From: Actinomycetes bacterium
GTDB taxonomy: Bacteria > Actinomycetota > Acidimicrobiia > Acidimicrobiales > Ilumatobacteraceae
Assembly: GCA_021414085.1 (NCBI GenBank)
Contig: JAIOPC010000014.1
Coordinates: forward strand, 62,001 to 126,000
Direction: 5' to 3'
DNA: 64,000 nt
Made by a program: the position numbers and the translations under genes
Shown here: piece by piece, positions 3,187 to 11,592 of the stretch
Layout of the letters: every line of letters begins with the position of its first letter
Position numbering within the stretch: position 1 is the first letter of the stretch
The notes under the pieces: generated by a model
What the model was told of the DNA's origin: nothing
What the model saw: the letters and a program-made list of their open reading frames with translations, nothing else
The model's database searches: none

Positions 3187-4077
3187 CTAGATCTGCAGGC
3201 CGAACCGGTCGGCGAACGCGTGGTAATAGTCGTCGTCGTCCTCGATCGTGCCAAGGGCGACCCATTGCTGATCGGTCATCGCTGCGCGGCCATCGATTAA
3301 CTCCTTGGCTCCCCAGCTGACGGGGTAGCGCAGTTGCGGTTGGTCGGTGGTGATCGCGTGATGCACCACCTTGCCAACCTCGAATGGGTCGGTTGCGTTG
3401 GCAAGACCAGCCGCGTACATCTGGAACATGCGGCGGTAGGCGGCGTCGTACGCGCCGGACTGATTGGGGGCGTCGATGTTCTTGGCGAAGATCGCACTCT
3501 TGGTCACACCCGGCTCGACGATGGCGACTCGAATGCCGAATGGCGCAACCTCTTGGGCGAGGCCTTCGCTGAGACCTTCCAGCGCCCACTTGGAAGTGAC
3601 ATACGGACTTTGTGCAAGCGCTGCAATCTTGCCAACCACCGACGTGATGTTGACGATGGTGCCGCGGCGACGCTCGCGCATACCGGGCAGCACCTGTTGT
3701 TGGCAGCGCACCGCGCCGCAAAGGTTGACGTTCATGATGTCGAGGTACATCTGCGGCGGGCATTCTTCGGCGACGGCGTTGCCGCCCACGCCAGCGTTGT
3801 TGACAAGCACGTCGACTACGCCGTCTGTCTCCGTGAGAATGCGCGCGAAGCCAGCCGCAACCGAATCGTCTGAGGCGACATCGAGCTCGATCAACTTCAC
3901 TTCAACGCCTGCATGTTCGGCCATCACGCCCAACTTGGCTGCCTTGTCGAGGCTGCGCACAGTGCCGTACACAACGAAGCCCTGCCCAGCAAGGTGGATG
4001 GCAGTGGCGCGACCGATGCCGCTGTTCGCGCCGGTAACAACAGCGATGGGCGTCGTTGCGTGAACGGGTTCAGTCAT
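3187..4077 (-). CDS. Short-chain dehydrogenase/reductase
   Basis: 296 residues, classical SDR. Cofactor motif TGANSGIG (15-22), NNAG (93-96), catalytic Ser146 in NITSVVG, and YVTSK with Tyr159 and Lys163 are all present. The Arg41 after the second strand (GTVRS) suggests NADP preference, though this is only a rule of thumb. The C-terminus is longer than the usual 250 residues and ends in an acidic IEDDDDYYHAF segment. It overlaps the upstream gene by 8 bases and is followed after 8 bases by a hypothetical gene, forming a three-gene unit. Substrate cannot be read from the sequence. Confidence 0.92.
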   Translation of the reverse strand: MTEPVHATTPIAVVTGANSGIGRATAIHLAGQGFVVYGTVRSLDKAAKLGVMAEHAGVEVKLIELDVASDDSVAAGFARILTETDGVVDVLVNNAGVGGNAVAEECPPQMYLDIMNVNLCGAVRCQQQVLPGMRERRRGTIVNITSVVGKIAALAQSPYVTSKWALEGLSEGLAQEVAPFGIRVAIVEPGVTKSAIFAKNIDAPNQSGAYDAAYRRMFQMYAAGLANATDPFEVGKVVHHAITTDQPQLRYPVSWGAKELIDGRAAMTDQQWVALGTIEDDDDYYHAFADRFGLQI

Positions 4078-4591
4078 GGTCGCCGATCGTAGGCGCGAAC
4101 TCGTCGTACCACACCGGGTCGGGGTCGCAGCCGAGGGCGAGGCTGCGCACGCGGTTGCCGTCGGTCAACAGCACATCGAGCAACAGCAATCCCTGCGCCA
4201 TGTGTGCCCTCCGCAGCGCGTGATAGCCGCGACGGTCAACTTCCGAAGGGGGACCGTCGGGCACCTCGTTGTCGATCACGATGCTGATCGTCTGGCAGAA
4301 CGGCGCTTCAACGCCGGGCAGGTTCGACATGCCGATCAGTAAGCCGACCTCAGCCGGCGGGTCGAGCAGCATTGCCGTGATGCGACGACGCTCGTCGAGC
4401 AAGGCAAGGACTTCGTGGCACACCGGCATGTCCAGCACTTCGGTGGCCAACATGACGGCGTCGGAGAACTCGGCGACAACGATTGGGTCGTCGGGACTGG
4501 GGAGAAAGATGCTCCACGGGTGATCGCCAGATTCCAGCTGCAACGACTGCTGGCGACGACGAGGCAAGCGCAAACGCGGCTTGAACGACAT
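4070..4591 (-). CDS. Hypothetical protein
   Basis: 173 residues, soluble, family not recognised. A basic N-terminus (FKPRLRLPRRRQQ) precedes an alpha/beta-like body. The start at 4591 is set by a strong GGAGG five bases upstream; an earlier in-frame ATG at 4615 lies upstream of that Shine-Dalgarno and is less likely. The stop lies inside the dehydrogenase gene (8-base overlap), which indicates coupling. The middle (about 75-130) mentions of note are CHEVLALLDERRRI and a hydrophobic ISIVIDNEV strand. No function proposed. Confidence 0.75.
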   Translation of the reverse strand: MSFKPRLRLPRRRQQSLQLESGDHPWSIFLPSPDDPIVVAEFSDAVMLATEVLDMPVCHEVLALLDERRRITAMLLDPPAEVGLLIGMSNLPGVEAPFCQTISIVIDNEVPDGPPSEVDRRGYHALRRAHMAQGLLLLDVLLTDGNRVRSLALGCDPDPVWYDEFAPTIGDHD

Positions 4592-4674
4592 GACTTCCTC
4601 CAAAGAAAACTGCAAGGTCGTGAACGACCGGAGTTGATTCCGGGGGAAGCCGTTGCGGCGAGACTATCGGTGCG

Positions 4675-5139
4675 TTACAGCAGTTCCGCTACGTGGGGAG
4701 CGATCTGTTCCGGCGTCACGCCGGTGCCAAAGCGCTGCACTTTGCCGTTGCGGTCGACCAGGAACTTCTCGAAGTTCCACTTGATGTCTTCTCCGTCGGT
4801 CTGTTCCTTCAGCCACGTGTAGAGCTCGCACGCAGCGTCGCCGTTGACCTCGATCTTGGCGAACATCGGAAACGCGACGTCGTACTTGGTCTGCACGAAC
4901 TTGAGGATGTCGGCATCCGGGTCGGGCTCTTGCTTGCCGAACTGGTTGCACGGGAAACCCATCACGGCGAAGCCGGCGGCTTTGTTGTCTTCGTGGAGAG
5001 TACGCAGACCTGCGTACTGCGGGGTAGCGCCTCAATAAGTGGCGACGTTGACCAGCAGCAGCACTTGGCCGCGGTAGTCGGCAAGGTTGACGTCCTCGCC
5101 GGTGATCGACTTCATCGTCAGGTCAAACATGTCGCTCAT
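4675..5139 (-). CDS. Glutathione peroxidase with selenocysteine at an in-frame TGA (Sec36)
   Basis: 154 residues when the TGA at 5034-5032 is read as selenocysteine. Both sides of the TGA are in one frame and match the GPx family without a gap: upstream GQVLLLVNVATY, then Sec36, then GATPQYAGLRTL, FPCNQFGKQEP and IKWNFEKFLVD. The family peroxidatic Cys/Sec falls exactly on this codon, and the other tetrad residues are present (Gln70, Trp121, Asn122). The enzyme reduces peroxides; in bacteria the electron donor is often thioredoxin. The ATG overlaps the stop of the P-type ATPase gene (ATGA). Automatic gene callers will split or truncate this gene or call it a pseudogene. Dedicated selenocysteine machinery should exist elsewhere in the genome. 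Confidence 0.88.
4999..5034 (-). promoter_or_regulatory. Candidate bacterial SECIS element (UGA plus downstream hairpin)
   Basis: Thirteen nucleotides after the UGA, the mRNA can form a perfect 7-bp stem AGUACGC/GCGUACU with loop AGGUCU. The loop starts 20 nt after the UGA and has G at its second position, both within what is described for bacterial SECIS elements. The core GCAGGUCUGC equals, as far as I remember, the apical stem-loop of the E. coli fdhF element. It encodes conserved GPx residues at the same time. Confidence 0.8.
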
Positions 5140-7511
5140 CGCTTCACTCTATCTCGCTGAGCCACTCGAGAACCGAGCTCGAGCAGTGGCCATGCGGCCG
5201 CGATCAGCCCTGCGGCGAGGCCGTACGCCCAGCCCGCGGTCGTGGGGAGTTCGAACCAATCGCGGCCTGTGGGGATCACGAACGCCAACGCGAAGAGTGC
5301 TGTCATCGTGATCACCAGCCCGCGGCGCAGGTGATTCAGCGGGCGCGCAACGCGGAACAGGTTCATCAGCGCAACCGAACCGGCGACGAGCACGGCGACC
5401 GTTCGCGCGTGGTCGCTGTCGATCGATTCGTCGAGTTGGGCGATGGCGAACACCGTCATGGTCGCCGCCGCGATCACGATTCCGGCCGGCACGGCGCGGC
5501 CGAGAACGCGTGGCATGAAGCCCTTCGCGACGCGCTGATCGTTGGGTTCCAGCGCAAGGAAGAAGGCGGGCAATCCGATCGTGAACCAGCTGAGGATCGA
5601 GAGGTGGATCGGGCGCAATGGGTAGGCGAGTGCGAATACGCCTGTGAGTACTGACAGCACCACCGAGTAGACGGTCTTGGCGAGAAACAGACTGGCGACG
5701 CGTTCGATGTTGTTGATCACGCGGCGGCCTTCGCTCACCACCGCGGGCATGGCAGAGAAGTTGGAATCCATCAGCACGAGCTGCGCGACACCGCGCGTTG
5801 CCTCGCTGCCCGACGCCATCGCGATGCCGCAGTCGCTGTCTTTCAAGGCGAGCACGTCGTTGACGCCGTCGCCGGTCATCGCCACCGTGTGACCGCGAGC
5901 CTGAAGTGCGCGCACCATCGCCCGCTTCTGGTGTGGCGTCACGCGGCCGAAAATCGTGCCGCTCTCGATTGCGTCGGCGAACTCCTTGCTGTCCTCATCG
6001 GGCAGCGTCGTGGCGTTGACGTTGTCTTCCCATCCGACAAGGCCCGCCTTCTGCGCGACAGCGCCGACGGTCACGTTGTTGTCGCCGCTGATCACCTTCA
6101 CGATCACGCCCTGGTCAGCGAAGTACTTGAGTGTCGCGGGCGCATCGGCGCGCATCACGTCTTCTAGCAAGACGAGTGCCACGGGACGAACCTTGGGGAG
6201 CTCCATGTCCTCGCTTGCAAAGGTTGTGTCCGTGCCGGCCAGTACGAGCACGCGTTCGCCGGTCGCAGCGTGCTGCTCGACCTGTTCCTGCAAAGCACCC
6301 GTGTATGCCTTGCCGAGCACATTCTCCGGAGCGCCGAGCACCCAGCTGCCGGCGGGCTTGCCGTCCGCGGTGGTGAAGGTCATGCCACCCCACTTACGGC
6401 CGGAAGAGAACGGCACCCGCCCGGTGACGAGCCACGTGGTCGGCTCGGTGAAGTGAGTACCCAGCGCGACGGTGGTGGCGTTGGGGTCGGGGTCGAGTTG
6501 CGCAAGTGCACACAACACAGGGTCGATGACTGCGCGATCTTCGCCGTCCATCGCCTTCACATCGGAAAGAGCAAGCGAGCCTTCGGTGATGGTTCCGGTC
6601 TTGTCCGCGCACAGCACATCGACGCGCGCGAGCACTTCGATTGCGGGAAGCTCCTGCACAAGGCAGCGTTGGCGAGCGAGTCGCACAACGCCGACGGCGA
6701 AGGCAACGCTGGTCAGCAGCACCAGGCCCTCGGGCACCATGCCGACCAAGCCGGCAACAGTGCTGATGATCGACTCTTGCCAGCCTTCGTGTCGCCGCAG
6801 GAACTGACTGCTCGCGAGCAGTAAGCCAACGGGGATGATGAGGTAGCCGACCCAGGTGACGATGCGGTTGATGTCGTTGCGCAGGGGCGAGTTGACGAGC
6901 GTGAAGCGGCGCGCTTCCTCGGCGAGTTTGATTGCGTAGTTTTCGGCGCCGACCTTCGTCACCAGCATGCGACCGGTGCCGGCGACGACGGCGCTGCCGC
7001 TGAGCACTTCGTCGCCTGGGCCTTTGCTAACCGCGTCGGCTTCGCCGGTGAGATGCGACTCGTCCAGCTCGAGGTTTTCGCCGGAGAGCACCTCGCCGTC
7101 GGCAACGACCTGAGCGCCCGAGCGCAGTTCAACGACGTCGTCGAGCACGAGTTCGTGCACCGCGAGTTCGACCACCTCGCCGTCGCGCACTGCTTGCGCC
7201 TTCGGCGCGCTGATCACGCTCAGCGAATCGAGCACTTTCTTCGCCCGTAGCTCCTGTACGACGCCGATCACGCTGTTGGCAACGATGACGCCGCCGAACA
7301 ACGCATCCTTCGGTGAGCCAGCGGCGATCACGAGCGCGGCCAGCACGCCAATGACGAGGTTGATCGGTGCCAGCACGTTGGCGCGGATGATCTGGCCGAC
7401 GCTGCGCGTGGGAGCGTCGGGGATGGCATTGGTCTCGCCGCGTGCCACCCGCTCGGCGACCTCGGCAGTCGTCAGGCCAGTCGTTGGGTCGGTCTTCGCG
7501 TCGGTATTCAC
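5136..7511 (-). CDS. P-type cation ATPase, CtpE-like
   Basis: 791 residues. Signature elements: actuator motif LTGEAD (about 154-159), MVPEGL in the ion-binding helix (about 258-263), phosphorylation site DKTGTITEG (about 304-312), hinge TGDGVND (about 543-549). Helices cluster near 45-90, 215-290 and 605-785. The MVPEGLVLLTSVAFA context and length resemble mycobacterial CtpE, described as a calcium uptake ATPase; the ion here is inferred, not shown. The start is GTG with no Shine-Dalgarno but a TATAG box 10 bases away, suggesting a leaderless mRNA. It is divergent from the PPOX gene by 27 bp and coupled to the glutathione peroxidase gene. Confidence 0.9.
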   Translation of the reverse strand: MNTDAKTDPTTGLTTAEVAERVARGETNAIPDAPTRSVGQIIRANVLAPINLVIGVLAALVIAAGSPKDALFGGVIVANSVIGVVQELRAKKVLDSLSVISAPKAQAVRDGEVVELAVHELVLDDVVELRSGAQVVADGEVLSGENLELDESHLTGEADAVSKGPGDEVLSGSAVVAGTGRMLVTKVGAENYAIKLAEEARRFTLVNSPLRNDINRIVTWVGYLIIPVGLLLASSQFLRRHEGWQESIISTVAGLVGMVPEGLVLLTSVAFAVGVVRLARQRCLVQELPAIEVLARVDVLCADKTGTITEGSLALSDVKAMDGEDRAVIDPVLCALAQLDPDPNATTVALGTHFTEPTTWLVTGRVPFSSGRKWGGMTFTTADGKPAGSWVLGAPENVLGKAYTGALQEQVEQHAATGERVLVLAGTDTTFASEDMELPKVRPVALVLLEDVMRADAPATLKYFADQGVIVKVISGDNNVTVGAVAQKAGLVGWEDNVNATTLPDEDSKEFADAIESGTIFGRVTPHQKRAMVRALQARGHTVAMTGDGVNDVLALKDSDCGIAMASGSEATRGVAQLVLMDSNFSAMPAVVSEGRRVINNIERVASLFLAKTVYSVVLSVLTGVFALAYPLRPIHLSILSWFTIGLPAFFLALEPNDQRVAKGFMPRVLGRAVPAGIVIAAATMTVFAIAQLDESIDSDHARTVAVLVAGSVALMNLFRVARPLNHLRRGLVITMTALFALAFVIPTGRDWFELPTTAGWAYGLAAGLIAAAWPLLELGSRVAQRDRVKR

Positions 7512-9265: not shown

Positions 9266-9327
9266 ATGGTATGGTCCGGCCTGTGTGCGGCGGCACGCCG
9301 ACCAACTTCCGATCGACGGAGCAACCC

Positions 9328-11592
9328 ATGACCACCGAGCCATTGATGTTTCACAAGACGGCGTGCATTTTGTGCGAATCCAACTGCGGCATCGAGGTAC
9401 GGCTCGATGGTCGCACGTTCGAACGCATCCGCGGCAACAAGGACCACGTCGGCTCCAAGGGGTACACCTGCGAAAAGGCGTTACGTCTCGACTACTACCA
9501 GAACACCCGCGACCGCTTGACGTTGCCGATGCGTCGCCGCGCCGACGGGACCCACGAACAGGTGTCGTGGGAGACCGCGATCGCCGAGGTCGCCGAACGG
9601 CTTGCCGCCGTCCGCAACACGCAGGGTGGCGCCTCGATCTTCCGGTATGGCACCGGCGGACAAGGCAACCACCTCGGCGGCGTGTACGGCGACGCGCTCA
9701 GCAACGCCCTCGGAGTGCGCTACCGATCCAACGCCCTCGCGCAGGAGAAGACCGGACAGGCCTACGTCGAAGGTCGCCTCTACCGTGCCCACACCCGTGG
9801 CGACTGGGGACAAACCGAGGTCGCCGTCTTCCTCGGCAAGAACCCGTGGATGAGTCACGGCCTTCCTGAAGCGCGGCGGGTGCTCAAGGAGATCGCTGGC
9901 GACCCCGAACGTTCGATGGTCGTGATCGACCCTCGTCGAACCAAGACCGCGGAGCTCGCCGATTACTTCCTGCAGGTCAAGCCAGGCACCGATGCTTACT
10001 GTCTTGCGGCGATCGTCGCGGTCCTCGTGCGCGACGAACTCGTCGATGGCACGTTTCTCGATACGCATGTCGTCGACGTCGAACCCGTCCTCGACGCGAT
10101 CGGTCGCGTCCCGATCTCCGAATTCGCCCAACGATGCGGGGTCGCGCTGCCGGACATCGAAGCCGTCGCGCACCGCATCGGCCGATCGCAGTCGGTCGCG
10201 ATCTTCGAAGACATCGGCGTCGAGCAAGCGCCCCACTCGACGCTGGTGTCGTACCTGCAGCGTCTGATCTGGATCCTGCGCGGCAGCTTCGCGAAACCCG
10301 GTGGCATGAACCCGGTGACCTCGCTGTTTCCGACCGGCAAGCGACCTGCCGGCGAGCGACGCGCCAGCTACACGCCGGTCACCGGTGCCGAGATCATCAC
10401 GGGCCTGATTCCGTGCAACTCGATCGCCGACGAGGTCCTCACGGATCATCCGGACCGGTTGCGGGCGATGATCATCGAGAGCTCGAACCCCGTGCACTCG
10501 CTCGCCGGCTCGGCCCGGTTCCGTGAAGCGATGGCAGCACTTGAGTTCAGTGTCGTGTTCGATGTCGTCATGACCGAGACCGGTCGTCTCGCCGACTACG
10601 TCCTGCCGTCGTCGAGCCAGTTCGAGAAGCCCGAAGCCGTCTTCTTCAACTTCGAGTTCCCCAACAACGTGTTTTCGCTCCGCAAGCCGGTGCTGGAACC
10701 GCTCCCGGGCGTCATCGCCGAACCCGAGATCCACGCCCGCCTCATCGAAGCGCTCGGCGCGCTCGACGACACCGACATCGCTCCCCTTCGTTTGGCTGCC
10801 GACGCCGGTCGCGCAGCGTTCGCGGCTGCCTTCGCCGCGGCGATTGGGAACAAGCCCGCACTCGCCAAGGTCGGCGCAGCACTGCTGTACCGCACCCTCG
10901 GCCCAACGCTGCCAGACGGCCTTGCCGGAGCGGCCGCGTTGTGGTTCCCGATGCAGCTATGCGCCGCCGCCTACCCCGAGGCGGTCGAACGAGGCGGCAT
11001 CCAGCCCGGCCCCACCGGCCTCGGCGACGCCCTCTTCGACGCAGTACTCGCGAGTGATGACGGCGTGGTCTTCACGAGTCACCGATACGAGGACGCGTGG
11101 GACCTCATCGGCTTCGAGGACGGCAAGATCCACGTCACCATCGCCGTCCTCATTGACGAGCTCGACGCATTGCGTAACGCTCCCACGTCATACACGACTG
11201 AGGACTTCCCCTACGTTCTGTCTGCCGGGGAGCGGCGGTCGTTCTCCGCCAACACCATCATCCGCAACCCGAACTGGCGAAAAAAGGACGTGGACGGGGC
11301 CCTCGCCATCGGCCCGCACGACGCCATGGCACTCGGCGTCGAAGACGGCGACCGCATCCGACTCACCACCGCCGCAGGCGCGGCAGAGCCGATCATCATG
11401 ATTGACGAAGCGATGCAAGCGGGCCACATCAGCCTGCCCAACGGCTACGGACTCAGCTACCCCGACGAACACGGAGAGCACCACACCGTCGGCGTCGCAC
11501 CCAACGAGCTCACATCCCTCGACTGGAAAGACACCATCGCCGGCACGCCGTGGCACAAGCATGTGCCAGCACGCCTTGAACGACTCGCCTGA
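9328..11592 (+). CDS. Molybdopterin-dependent oxidoreductase (DMSO reductase superfamily)
   Basis: 754 residues. The N-terminal 4Fe-4S motif is CILCESNCGI plus a downstream Cys in KGYTCEKALRLDYY (about 12-60). The bis-MGD core follows (VSWETAIAEVAERL, RYGTGGQGNHLGG, IDPRRTKTAELADYFL, KPGTDAYCL, LPSSSQFEKPEAVF). The dinucleotide-binding domain is C-terminal (about 625-750: NPNWRKKDVDGALAIG, ISLPNGYGLSYP). No twin-arginine signal, so cytoplasmic. The region around LAQEKTGQAYVEGR where formate dehydrogenases carry a catalytic Cys/Sec has none, so it is not a classical formate dehydrogenase; substrate unknown. The start at 9328 has GGAG upstream; earlier in-frame starts overlap the operator. It is the main cargo between the two tRNA-derived repeats. 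Confidence 0.88.
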   Translation: MTTEPLMFHKTACILCESNCGIEVRLDGRTFERIRGNKDHVGSKGYTCEKALRLDYYQNTRDRLTLPMRRRADGTHEQVSWETAIAEVAERLAAVRNTQGGASIFRYGTGGQGNHLGGVYGDALSNALGVRYRSNALAQEKTGQAYVEGRLYRAHTRGDWGQTEVAVFLGKNPWMSHGLPEARRVLKEIAGDPERSMVVIDPRRTKTAELADYFLQVKPGTDAYCLAAIVAVLVRDELVDGTFLDTHVVDVEPVLDAIGRVPISEFAQRCGVALPDIEAVAHRIGRSQSVAIFEDIGVEQAPHSTLVSYLQRLIWILRGSFAKPGGMNPVTSLFPTGKRPAGERRASYTPVTGAEIITGLIPCNSIADEVLTDHPDRLRAMIIESSNPVHSLAGSARFREAMAALEFSVVFDVVMTETGRLADYVLPSSSQFEKPEAVFFNFEFPNNVFSLRKPVLEPLPGVIAEPEIHARLIEALGALDDTDIAPLRLAADAGRAAFAAAFAAAIGNKPALAKVGAALLYRTLGPTLPDGLAGAAALWFPMQLCAAAYPEAVERGGIQPGPTGLGDALFDAVLASDDGVVFTSHRYEDAWDLIGFEDGKIHVTIAVLIDELDALRNAPTSYTTEDFPYVLSAGERRSFSANTIIRNPNWRKKDVDGALAIGPHDAMALGVEDGDRIRLTTAAGAAEPIIMIDEAMQAGHISLPNGYGLSYPDEHGEHHTVGVAPNELTSLDWKDTIAGTPWHKHVPARLERLA

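Follow-up and report, generated by a model that had tools for sequence, protein, structure and literature searches.

The question raised by this locus is whether a gene of the glutathione peroxidase (GPx) family, whose reading frame is broken by a TGA at the codon of its catalytic residue, encodes a selenocysteine (Sec) enzyme. The stretch of 64,000 nucleotides that was analysed (hereafter named the window) forms part of an assembly of 18 contigs (3.2 Mb, 97% complete), in which this gene was the sole GPx match found. When the TGA was read as a residue, the frame matched Pfam GSHPx (PF00255) with 132.8 bits (cut-off 27), and codon 36 was the sole interruption across its 154 residues, as had been stated in an initial annotation made from the sequence. 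The positions of this gene and of the features around it are collected in Table 1. The catalytic tetrad is made up of U36, Q70 (within QEP), W121 and N122 (both within WNF), and the UxxT motif is present as U36-G-A-T39. The best PDB sequence match was 2v1m (E 9.9e-39), which we take to be the Schistosoma mansoni enzyme, natively a Sec protein. Matches to the NCBIfam equivalogs, which describe single GPx types, stayed below their own cut-offs (150.5 against 270 and 125.5 against 207.3 bits). A six-frame control of the window revealed that 76 of its 1780 TGA codons likewise have an open frame of comparable length on either side. By itself, therefore, the open frame proves little, and it is the homology that carries the case. 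Taking together the evidence presented below, we give a probability of about 0.95 to the prediction that this gene inserts Sec at UGA36 and encodes a Sec peroxidase of the GPx family.

Table 1. Positions of the predicted Sec-GPx gene, its recoding elements and its neighbours in the window.
Feature	Position	Strand	Remarks
GPx-family peroxidase gene	4675..5139	-	154 residues, predicted Sec at residue 36
In-frame TGA, predicted Sec codon	5032..5034	-	codon 36, read as 5034-5032
Bacterial SECIS hairpin, within the GPx coding region	4999..5018	-	stem AGUACGC/GCGUACU, loop AGGUCU
Apical loop AGGUCU	5006..5011	-	extended by two stem bases at either end, gives the 10-nt core GCAGGUCUGC, also in E. coli fdhF
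P-type ATPase (E1-E2), upstream, probable operon partner	5136..7511	-	stop overlaps the GPx start (ATGA, 5139-5136)
Downstream gene, no Pfam match	4070..4615	-	retained beside Sec-GPx in close relatives
Short-chain dehydrogenase, downstream	3187..4077	-	retained beside Sec-GPx in several close relatives

Conservation of the TGA was analysed in a sample of 200 genomes of the Ilumatobacteraceae, 175 of which had a GPx match. At least 41 of the 200 carried a GPx match interrupted by a single TGA. The comparison of homologues at codon 36, proposed in the initial annotation, showed the TGA at this catalytic codon in all of the 30 family genes examined as loci. The tetrad motifs QEP and WNF were also present in 30 of 30. 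Comparison with the nearest homologue gave dN/dS values of 0.17 before the TGA and 0.16 after it. A selA match was detected in 40 of the 41 genomes with a TGA-containing GPx and in 112 of the 159 others (Fisher p 7e-5), a count that includes weak and partial matches (E 0.001 or better) and is drawn from related, not independent, genomes. The one exception (G157) has a TGA-containing GPx and no selA match; this genome is 78% complete and contains a tRNA-Sec scoring 66.3 bits. In the 112 genomes where selA was matched, in part only weakly, without a listed TGA-containing GPx, the Sec trait is probably kept by other selenoproteins.

The initial annotation had regarded the absence of the selenocysteine genes as evidence that would speak against Sec; all four of them were found in the window genome. 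The tRNA-Sec scored 67 bits, above the curated cut-off, and was called tRNA-SeC by ARAGORN, with the anticodon TCA (UCA). The selA (400.6 bits) and selB (273.6 bits) matches, both over their curated cut-offs, correspond to overlapping genes on contig C10, and selD (311.1 bits) also exceeded its curated cut-off. The models of selB and tRNA-Sec gave weak matches in 14 of 14 control genomes, exceeding the cut-off in 2 and 5 of them, respectively, and for this reason only matches over the cut-off were accepted for the window genome. The SelD protein of this genome has Cys, not Sec. The overlapping selA and selB genes (456 and 576 amino acids; locus L227, 6335-9423) are a probable operon, and the tRNA-Sec lies on the same contig, about 27 kb off.

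The hairpin described in the initial annotation was recovered downstream of the TGA. Its stem comprises 7 bp (5018-5012 with 5005-4999), the inner six of which are common to the family, and its apical loop AGGUCU (5011-5006), which contains a G, begins 20 nt after the UGA. A likeness to the apex of the E. coli fdhF SECIS had been proposed there and proved to be right: in the sequence of E. coli K-12 fdhF, the 10-nt core GCAGGTCTGC is located 3' of Sec140 and is identical to the window apex. The fdhF element (GCAGGUCUGC in its core) belongs to another gene, and it differs from that of the window in the distance between UGA and loop (17 nt instead of 20) and in the lower stem. During translation, SelB with its Sec-tRNA-Sec would bind the hairpin just 3' of UGA36, and Sec would be inserted at this codon in place of termination; the selenolate of Sec36, within the tetrad U36/Q70/W121/N122, would then reduce the hydroperoxide.

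Within the family this region is almost frozen. A run of 18 nt (positions 15 to 32, the T of the TGA being 0), extending over the 5' stem and the loop and into most of the 3' stem, was identical in 30 of 30 Sec genes and includes the codons GCA (Ala), GGT (Gly), CTG (Leu) and CGT (Arg). Downstream in the same 30 genes, GCA accounts for 25 of 268 Ala codons, GGT for 52 of 232 Gly codons and CGT for 6 of 71 Arg codons. At position 33, 21 genes have A and 9 have G, and either of them can pair with U. The seven codons of the hairpin showed less codon diversity than 106 other sites (Mann-Whitney p 0.001); in the comparison with the nearest homologue, the hairpin codons 41-47 showed no difference.

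Sequences from a wider search (see below) made it possible to analyse the base pairing. Among 128 distinct sequences, the 111 with loops of the AGGUCU, CGGUCU or CGGGUU type were counted and the 17 with hairpins in another register were omitted; of the 111 sequences selected in this way by their loop, 106 to 111 form each of the six stem pairs, and of all 128 sequences, 106 to 127 do so. One of the stem pairs is G-C in 100 of the 111 sequences, A-U in 8 and U-G in 2, and the adjoining pair is C-G in 105, U-A in 1 and U-G in 2. The two-sided swaps, which occur in other phyla, alter the protein (from QYAGLR to QYTGLC or QYAGLH), and such changes, which keep the pair at the expense of the amino acid, point to selection on the RNA. 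As judged from these sequences, the hairpin is under constraint at the RNA level and varies by two-sided changes; the compensatory changes that alter amino acids suggest that RNA structure overrides protein sequence at this site. In 22 representative cores, 90.9% of the cells were paired (85.1 in shuffles), the covariation score was 0.260 (0.152 in shuffles) and two-sided changes were present in 7 cells (1.6 in shuffles), values that none of 500 shuffles reached. The number of pairs with two-sided changes in these cores (two) was not above that of the shuffles, 173 of 500 of which reached it. Sliding the pairing by +2 gave a covariation score close to that of the true register (0.242 against 0.260), but only 62.9% of the cells were then paired, against 90.9%.

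The mean energy of the best hairpin was -8.0 kcal/mol in 135 distinct Sec sequences versus -2.6 in 20 genes of the Cys type; of the latter, 9 lack any hairpin of at least 4 bp and were entered as 0. Taken singly, the 50-nt sequence of the window does not fold exceptionally well (z -0.61; 49 of 200 shuffles were at least equal), and 14 of 1000 synonymous recodings attained the energy of its hairpin. An Rfam search at the hairpin gave no SECIS match, even with E values up to 10, which ruled out its assignment to an Rfam SECIS family. A search of the window genome with a pattern of the fdhF-like core, which would miss other SECIS types, returned four rows corresponding to three places. One of them is the GPx hairpin, the second (L085 and L086) falls in a reading frame that stays open with no need of the TGA, and the third (L083) is located among overlapping ORFs of other frames, with a stem of only 4 bp around the core.

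Two other explanations of the TGA have to be weighed against insertion of Sec. The gene might be a Cys-type GPx with a premature TGA, arisen as a pseudogene or by sequencing error and not translated past codon 36; indeed, according to translation table 11 the frame ends at codon 36, and the downstream ORF of 96 amino acids could be annotated on its own. The same TGA is kept at codon 36 in all 30 family homologues, which excludes a sequencing error, and a single TGA recurs in the at least 41 of 200 family genomes mentioned above. Moreover, at least 117 TGA-bearing GPx genes were found in the wide scan (the pattern of which required the TGA, and some genomes of which are shared with the family set), the dN/dS of 0.16 after the TGA is like that before it, and the synonymous run in the hairpin is unusually frozen. 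Conservation and dN/dS thus rule out a pseudogene or an error, the probability of which we regard as negligible. It is also very improbable that the TGA is decoded as another amino acid, by near-cognate read-through or a reassigned code, with neither SelB nor selenium taking part. This would account for a frame that stays open past the TGA, but the adjoining ATPase gene terminates with TGA, and since TGA is a stop in that gene, another recoding of it was ruled out. Furthermore, the codon sits exactly at the catalytic residue, the hairpin is conserved, and the genome has a complete set of Sec genes, with co-occurrence of the TGA-containing GPx and selA. Incorporation of Sec at codon 36 is therefore the preferred reading. 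Because table 11 gene calling ends such genes at the TGA, a catalytic antioxidant enzyme can be overlooked in this way.

Bacterial Sec-GPx is on record from computational surveys. A survey of the Sargasso Sea included 5 sequences of Sec-GPx, chiefly from bacteria (PMC1088965), and a survey of 2006 included one, the name Gpx being given for Treponema denticola (PMC1794560). The GPx row in a table of the GOS survey reads 40, 18 and 3,287, where 40 presumably counts the Sec sequences and 3,287 the Cys homologues (PMC2398784), and a review of 2026 states that the bacterial Sec-GPx family is predicted with high confidence (PMC13188914). The selenoprotein families catalogued so far thus include bacterial Sec-GPx (PMC1088965, PMC1794560, PMC2398784, PMC13188914). 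Hence, the Sec form that the initial annotation had considered notable for a bacterium was upheld, but it is of a known kind. In the open-licence literature, as far as its excerpts go, no report of a Sec-GPx in Acidimicrobiia was found; co-occurrence of SelA and SelB in bins of sponge symbionts has been described. The window gene shares with the known bacterial Sec GPx-like family (PF00255; Treponema denticola, Sargasso Sea, GOS) the catalytic TGA, the SECIS directly downstream and the UxxT motif, and differs from it in its occurrence in Actinomycetota (Acidimicrobiia) and in its near-invariant, fdhF-like apex. In eukaryotes the SECIS is located in the 3'UTR (PMC1088965), whereas in the window gene it lies in the coding sequence. 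The useful additions made here are the actinobacterial lineage, the spread across phyla and the exchange between Sec and resolving Cys.

In the wide scan, contigs were searched broadly with a DNA pattern requiring a TGA in the GPx motif, which returned at least 120 stretches, a number that is not a measure of prevalence. BLASTP identified at least 117 of them as GPx and three, among the matches listed, as chance hits; some of the genomes are also present in the family set. The Sec-GPx genes came from Acidimicrobiia, Gammaproteobacteria, Myxococcota, Planctomycetota, Brachyspira, Clostridia and Alphaproteobacteria, mostly from metagenome-assembled genomes (MAGs). Planctomycetota of the Pirellulales type, Brachyspira and Clostridia have other hairpins at nearly the same place; MAGs of Alphaproteobacteria, which lie outside the rows of the tree, have the same hairpin type. 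A Sec-GPx was also present in Ilumatobacter nonamiensis YM16-303, a named strain with a record that bears no MAG label, and selenium dependence and thiol preference are thus directly testable.

A tree of 101 rows was obtained by a quick method, for which the wide-scan rows were thinned to the odd-numbered loci longer than 140 amino acids. The Cys rows were 18 of the 20 genes described below, each of them from the Ilumatobacteraceae. The Sec genes with hairpins of the AGGUCU and CGGGUU types from Acidimicrobiia, Gammaproteobacteria and Myxococcota grouped together (support 82-86, not starred), and a single change parts the 30 family Sec rows from 18 family Cys rows (support 86). Two Cys rows (L207 and L210) were placed with the Sec rows of Brachyspira and Clostridia (support 95, starred, with a long-branch warning), so the Cys rows do not form one group by themselves. 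Since the Cys rows come from a single family, the tree cannot tell how many times Sec was gained. A more far-reaching reading, which we regard as less likely than not, is a Sec-GPx clade with a near-frozen SECIS of the fdhF type and without resolving Cys, spread across Acidimicrobiia, Gammaproteobacteria and Myxococcota, that might act as a one-Sec mycothiol peroxidase in the actinobacteria that use mycothiol, where a Sec enzyme would thus be linked to a thiol system other than glutathione.

The absence of a resolving Cys bears on the reductant of the predicted enzyme. The window GPx has Val82 at the position in helix alpha-2 that the resolving Cys occupies in Cys-type GPx, and thus lacks the residue by which the 2-Cys, thioredoxin-type GPx is recognised. 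In the 30 family Sec genes this position is Ala in 25, Val in 5 and Cys in none. The Cys-type relatives of the family (2-Cys, Hyr1-like) have the same domain, with both the catalytic and the resolving Cys in 20 of 20 (the latter assigned by script in 16 and by eye in 4) and with a hairpin that is weaker or absent; these 20 genes, 47-53% identical, were drawn from the first 26 stop-free rows of the family GPx listing. The eukaryotic GPx4-type and S. mansoni (2v1m) enzymes are like the window protein in having QEP and WNF and no resolving Cys at the aligned position. Among the 117 Sec genes listed from the wide scan, 13 have the resolving Cys (9 from Planctomycetota and 4 from Bacillota) and 2 could not be assigned, which indicates that the exchange between Sec and resolving Cys characterises the window lineage and related ones but does not extend to every Sec-GPx. 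One bacterial family thus offers an unusually clean natural comparison between Sec without a resolving Cys and Cys with one.

Without a resolving Cys, the oxidised Sec36 would most likely be reduced by an external thiol. No match to the profile of gshB (glutathione synthetase) was found in the window genome, and an MshC-like ligase gene is present (contig C9:113000-117000), which makes mycothiol, or a direct action of thioredoxin, more probable than glutathione. The best model for the MshC-like protein was TIGR03447, with 414.8 bits, under the cut-off of 485.1. With the cysS model the same protein scored 342, just over the cut-off of 340, a separate CysS-like gene being present; mycothiol is therefore only weakly indicated. 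MshC matches were present in 29 of the 30 Sec-GPx genomes, all below the curated MshC cut-off, and the Ilumatobacteraceae may hold a diverged mycothiol pathway. Sec in the MshC or CysS proteins of relatives was ruled out, as in 4 of 4 rows with one TGA this codon precedes the start codon by a few residues. The mycothiol peroxidase Mpx of Corynebacterium glutamicum and Streptomyces, an actinobacterial peroxidase that uses mycothiol, presumably belongs to the GPx family; the literature entries found for it do not mention Sec.

Use of glutathione, as the family name implies, or of Cys104 or Cys64 as an internal resolving thiol, seems unlikely to us. The window protein does contain C104, and the motif PCNQF (with C64) is present in 30 of 30 Sec genes. 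Nevertheless, only 5 of the 30 Sec-GPx genomes gave gshB matches, all under the cut-off, an equivalent of Cys104 is present in just 20 of the 30 Sec genes, and the C64 motif (CNQF or CDQF) is also found in the 20 Cys-type relatives and is therefore not special to the Sec form. On balance, we lean slightly towards mycothiol, or thioredoxin directly, rather than glutathione, as the predicted reductant of this enzyme.

The initial annotation had also coupled the GPx to a CtpE-like ATPase. In the window the two genes overlap at ATGA, but such a coupling is limited by lineage. Of the 30 family loci, 13, all belonging to two genera, have a relative of this ATPase as the next gene upstream in the same orientation. 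The other 17 lack such an upstream ATPase, although one of them has a weak match on the opposite strand and at least two end short upstream. In the wide scan the ATPase relative was directly upstream in 3 of the 117 loci listed and in none of the remaining 114, some of these loci being short. A shared operon of ATPase and GPx is thus likely in the window lineage and not a general feature; that both proteins form one functional unit, such as metal export combined with peroxide defence, is doubtful given the loci without the ATPase, in spite of the overlap and the 13 family loci.

Other possible selenoproteins were also considered. The FdhA match of the window genome (889.6 bits) has no internal stop, which rules it out as a selenoprotein. 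At positions 9271-11592 (+), the window contains a molybdopterin oxidoreductase, with Pfam matches to the Molybdopterin, 4Fe-4S and dinucleotide-binding domains, a frame open without TGA and scores below the listed NCBIfam cut-offs. In genomes of Ilumatobacteraceae, 17 of the loci examined contain a SelD with one in-frame TGA; the motif GAG-U-[GA]CK, followed by a different sequence, was present in 16 of these.
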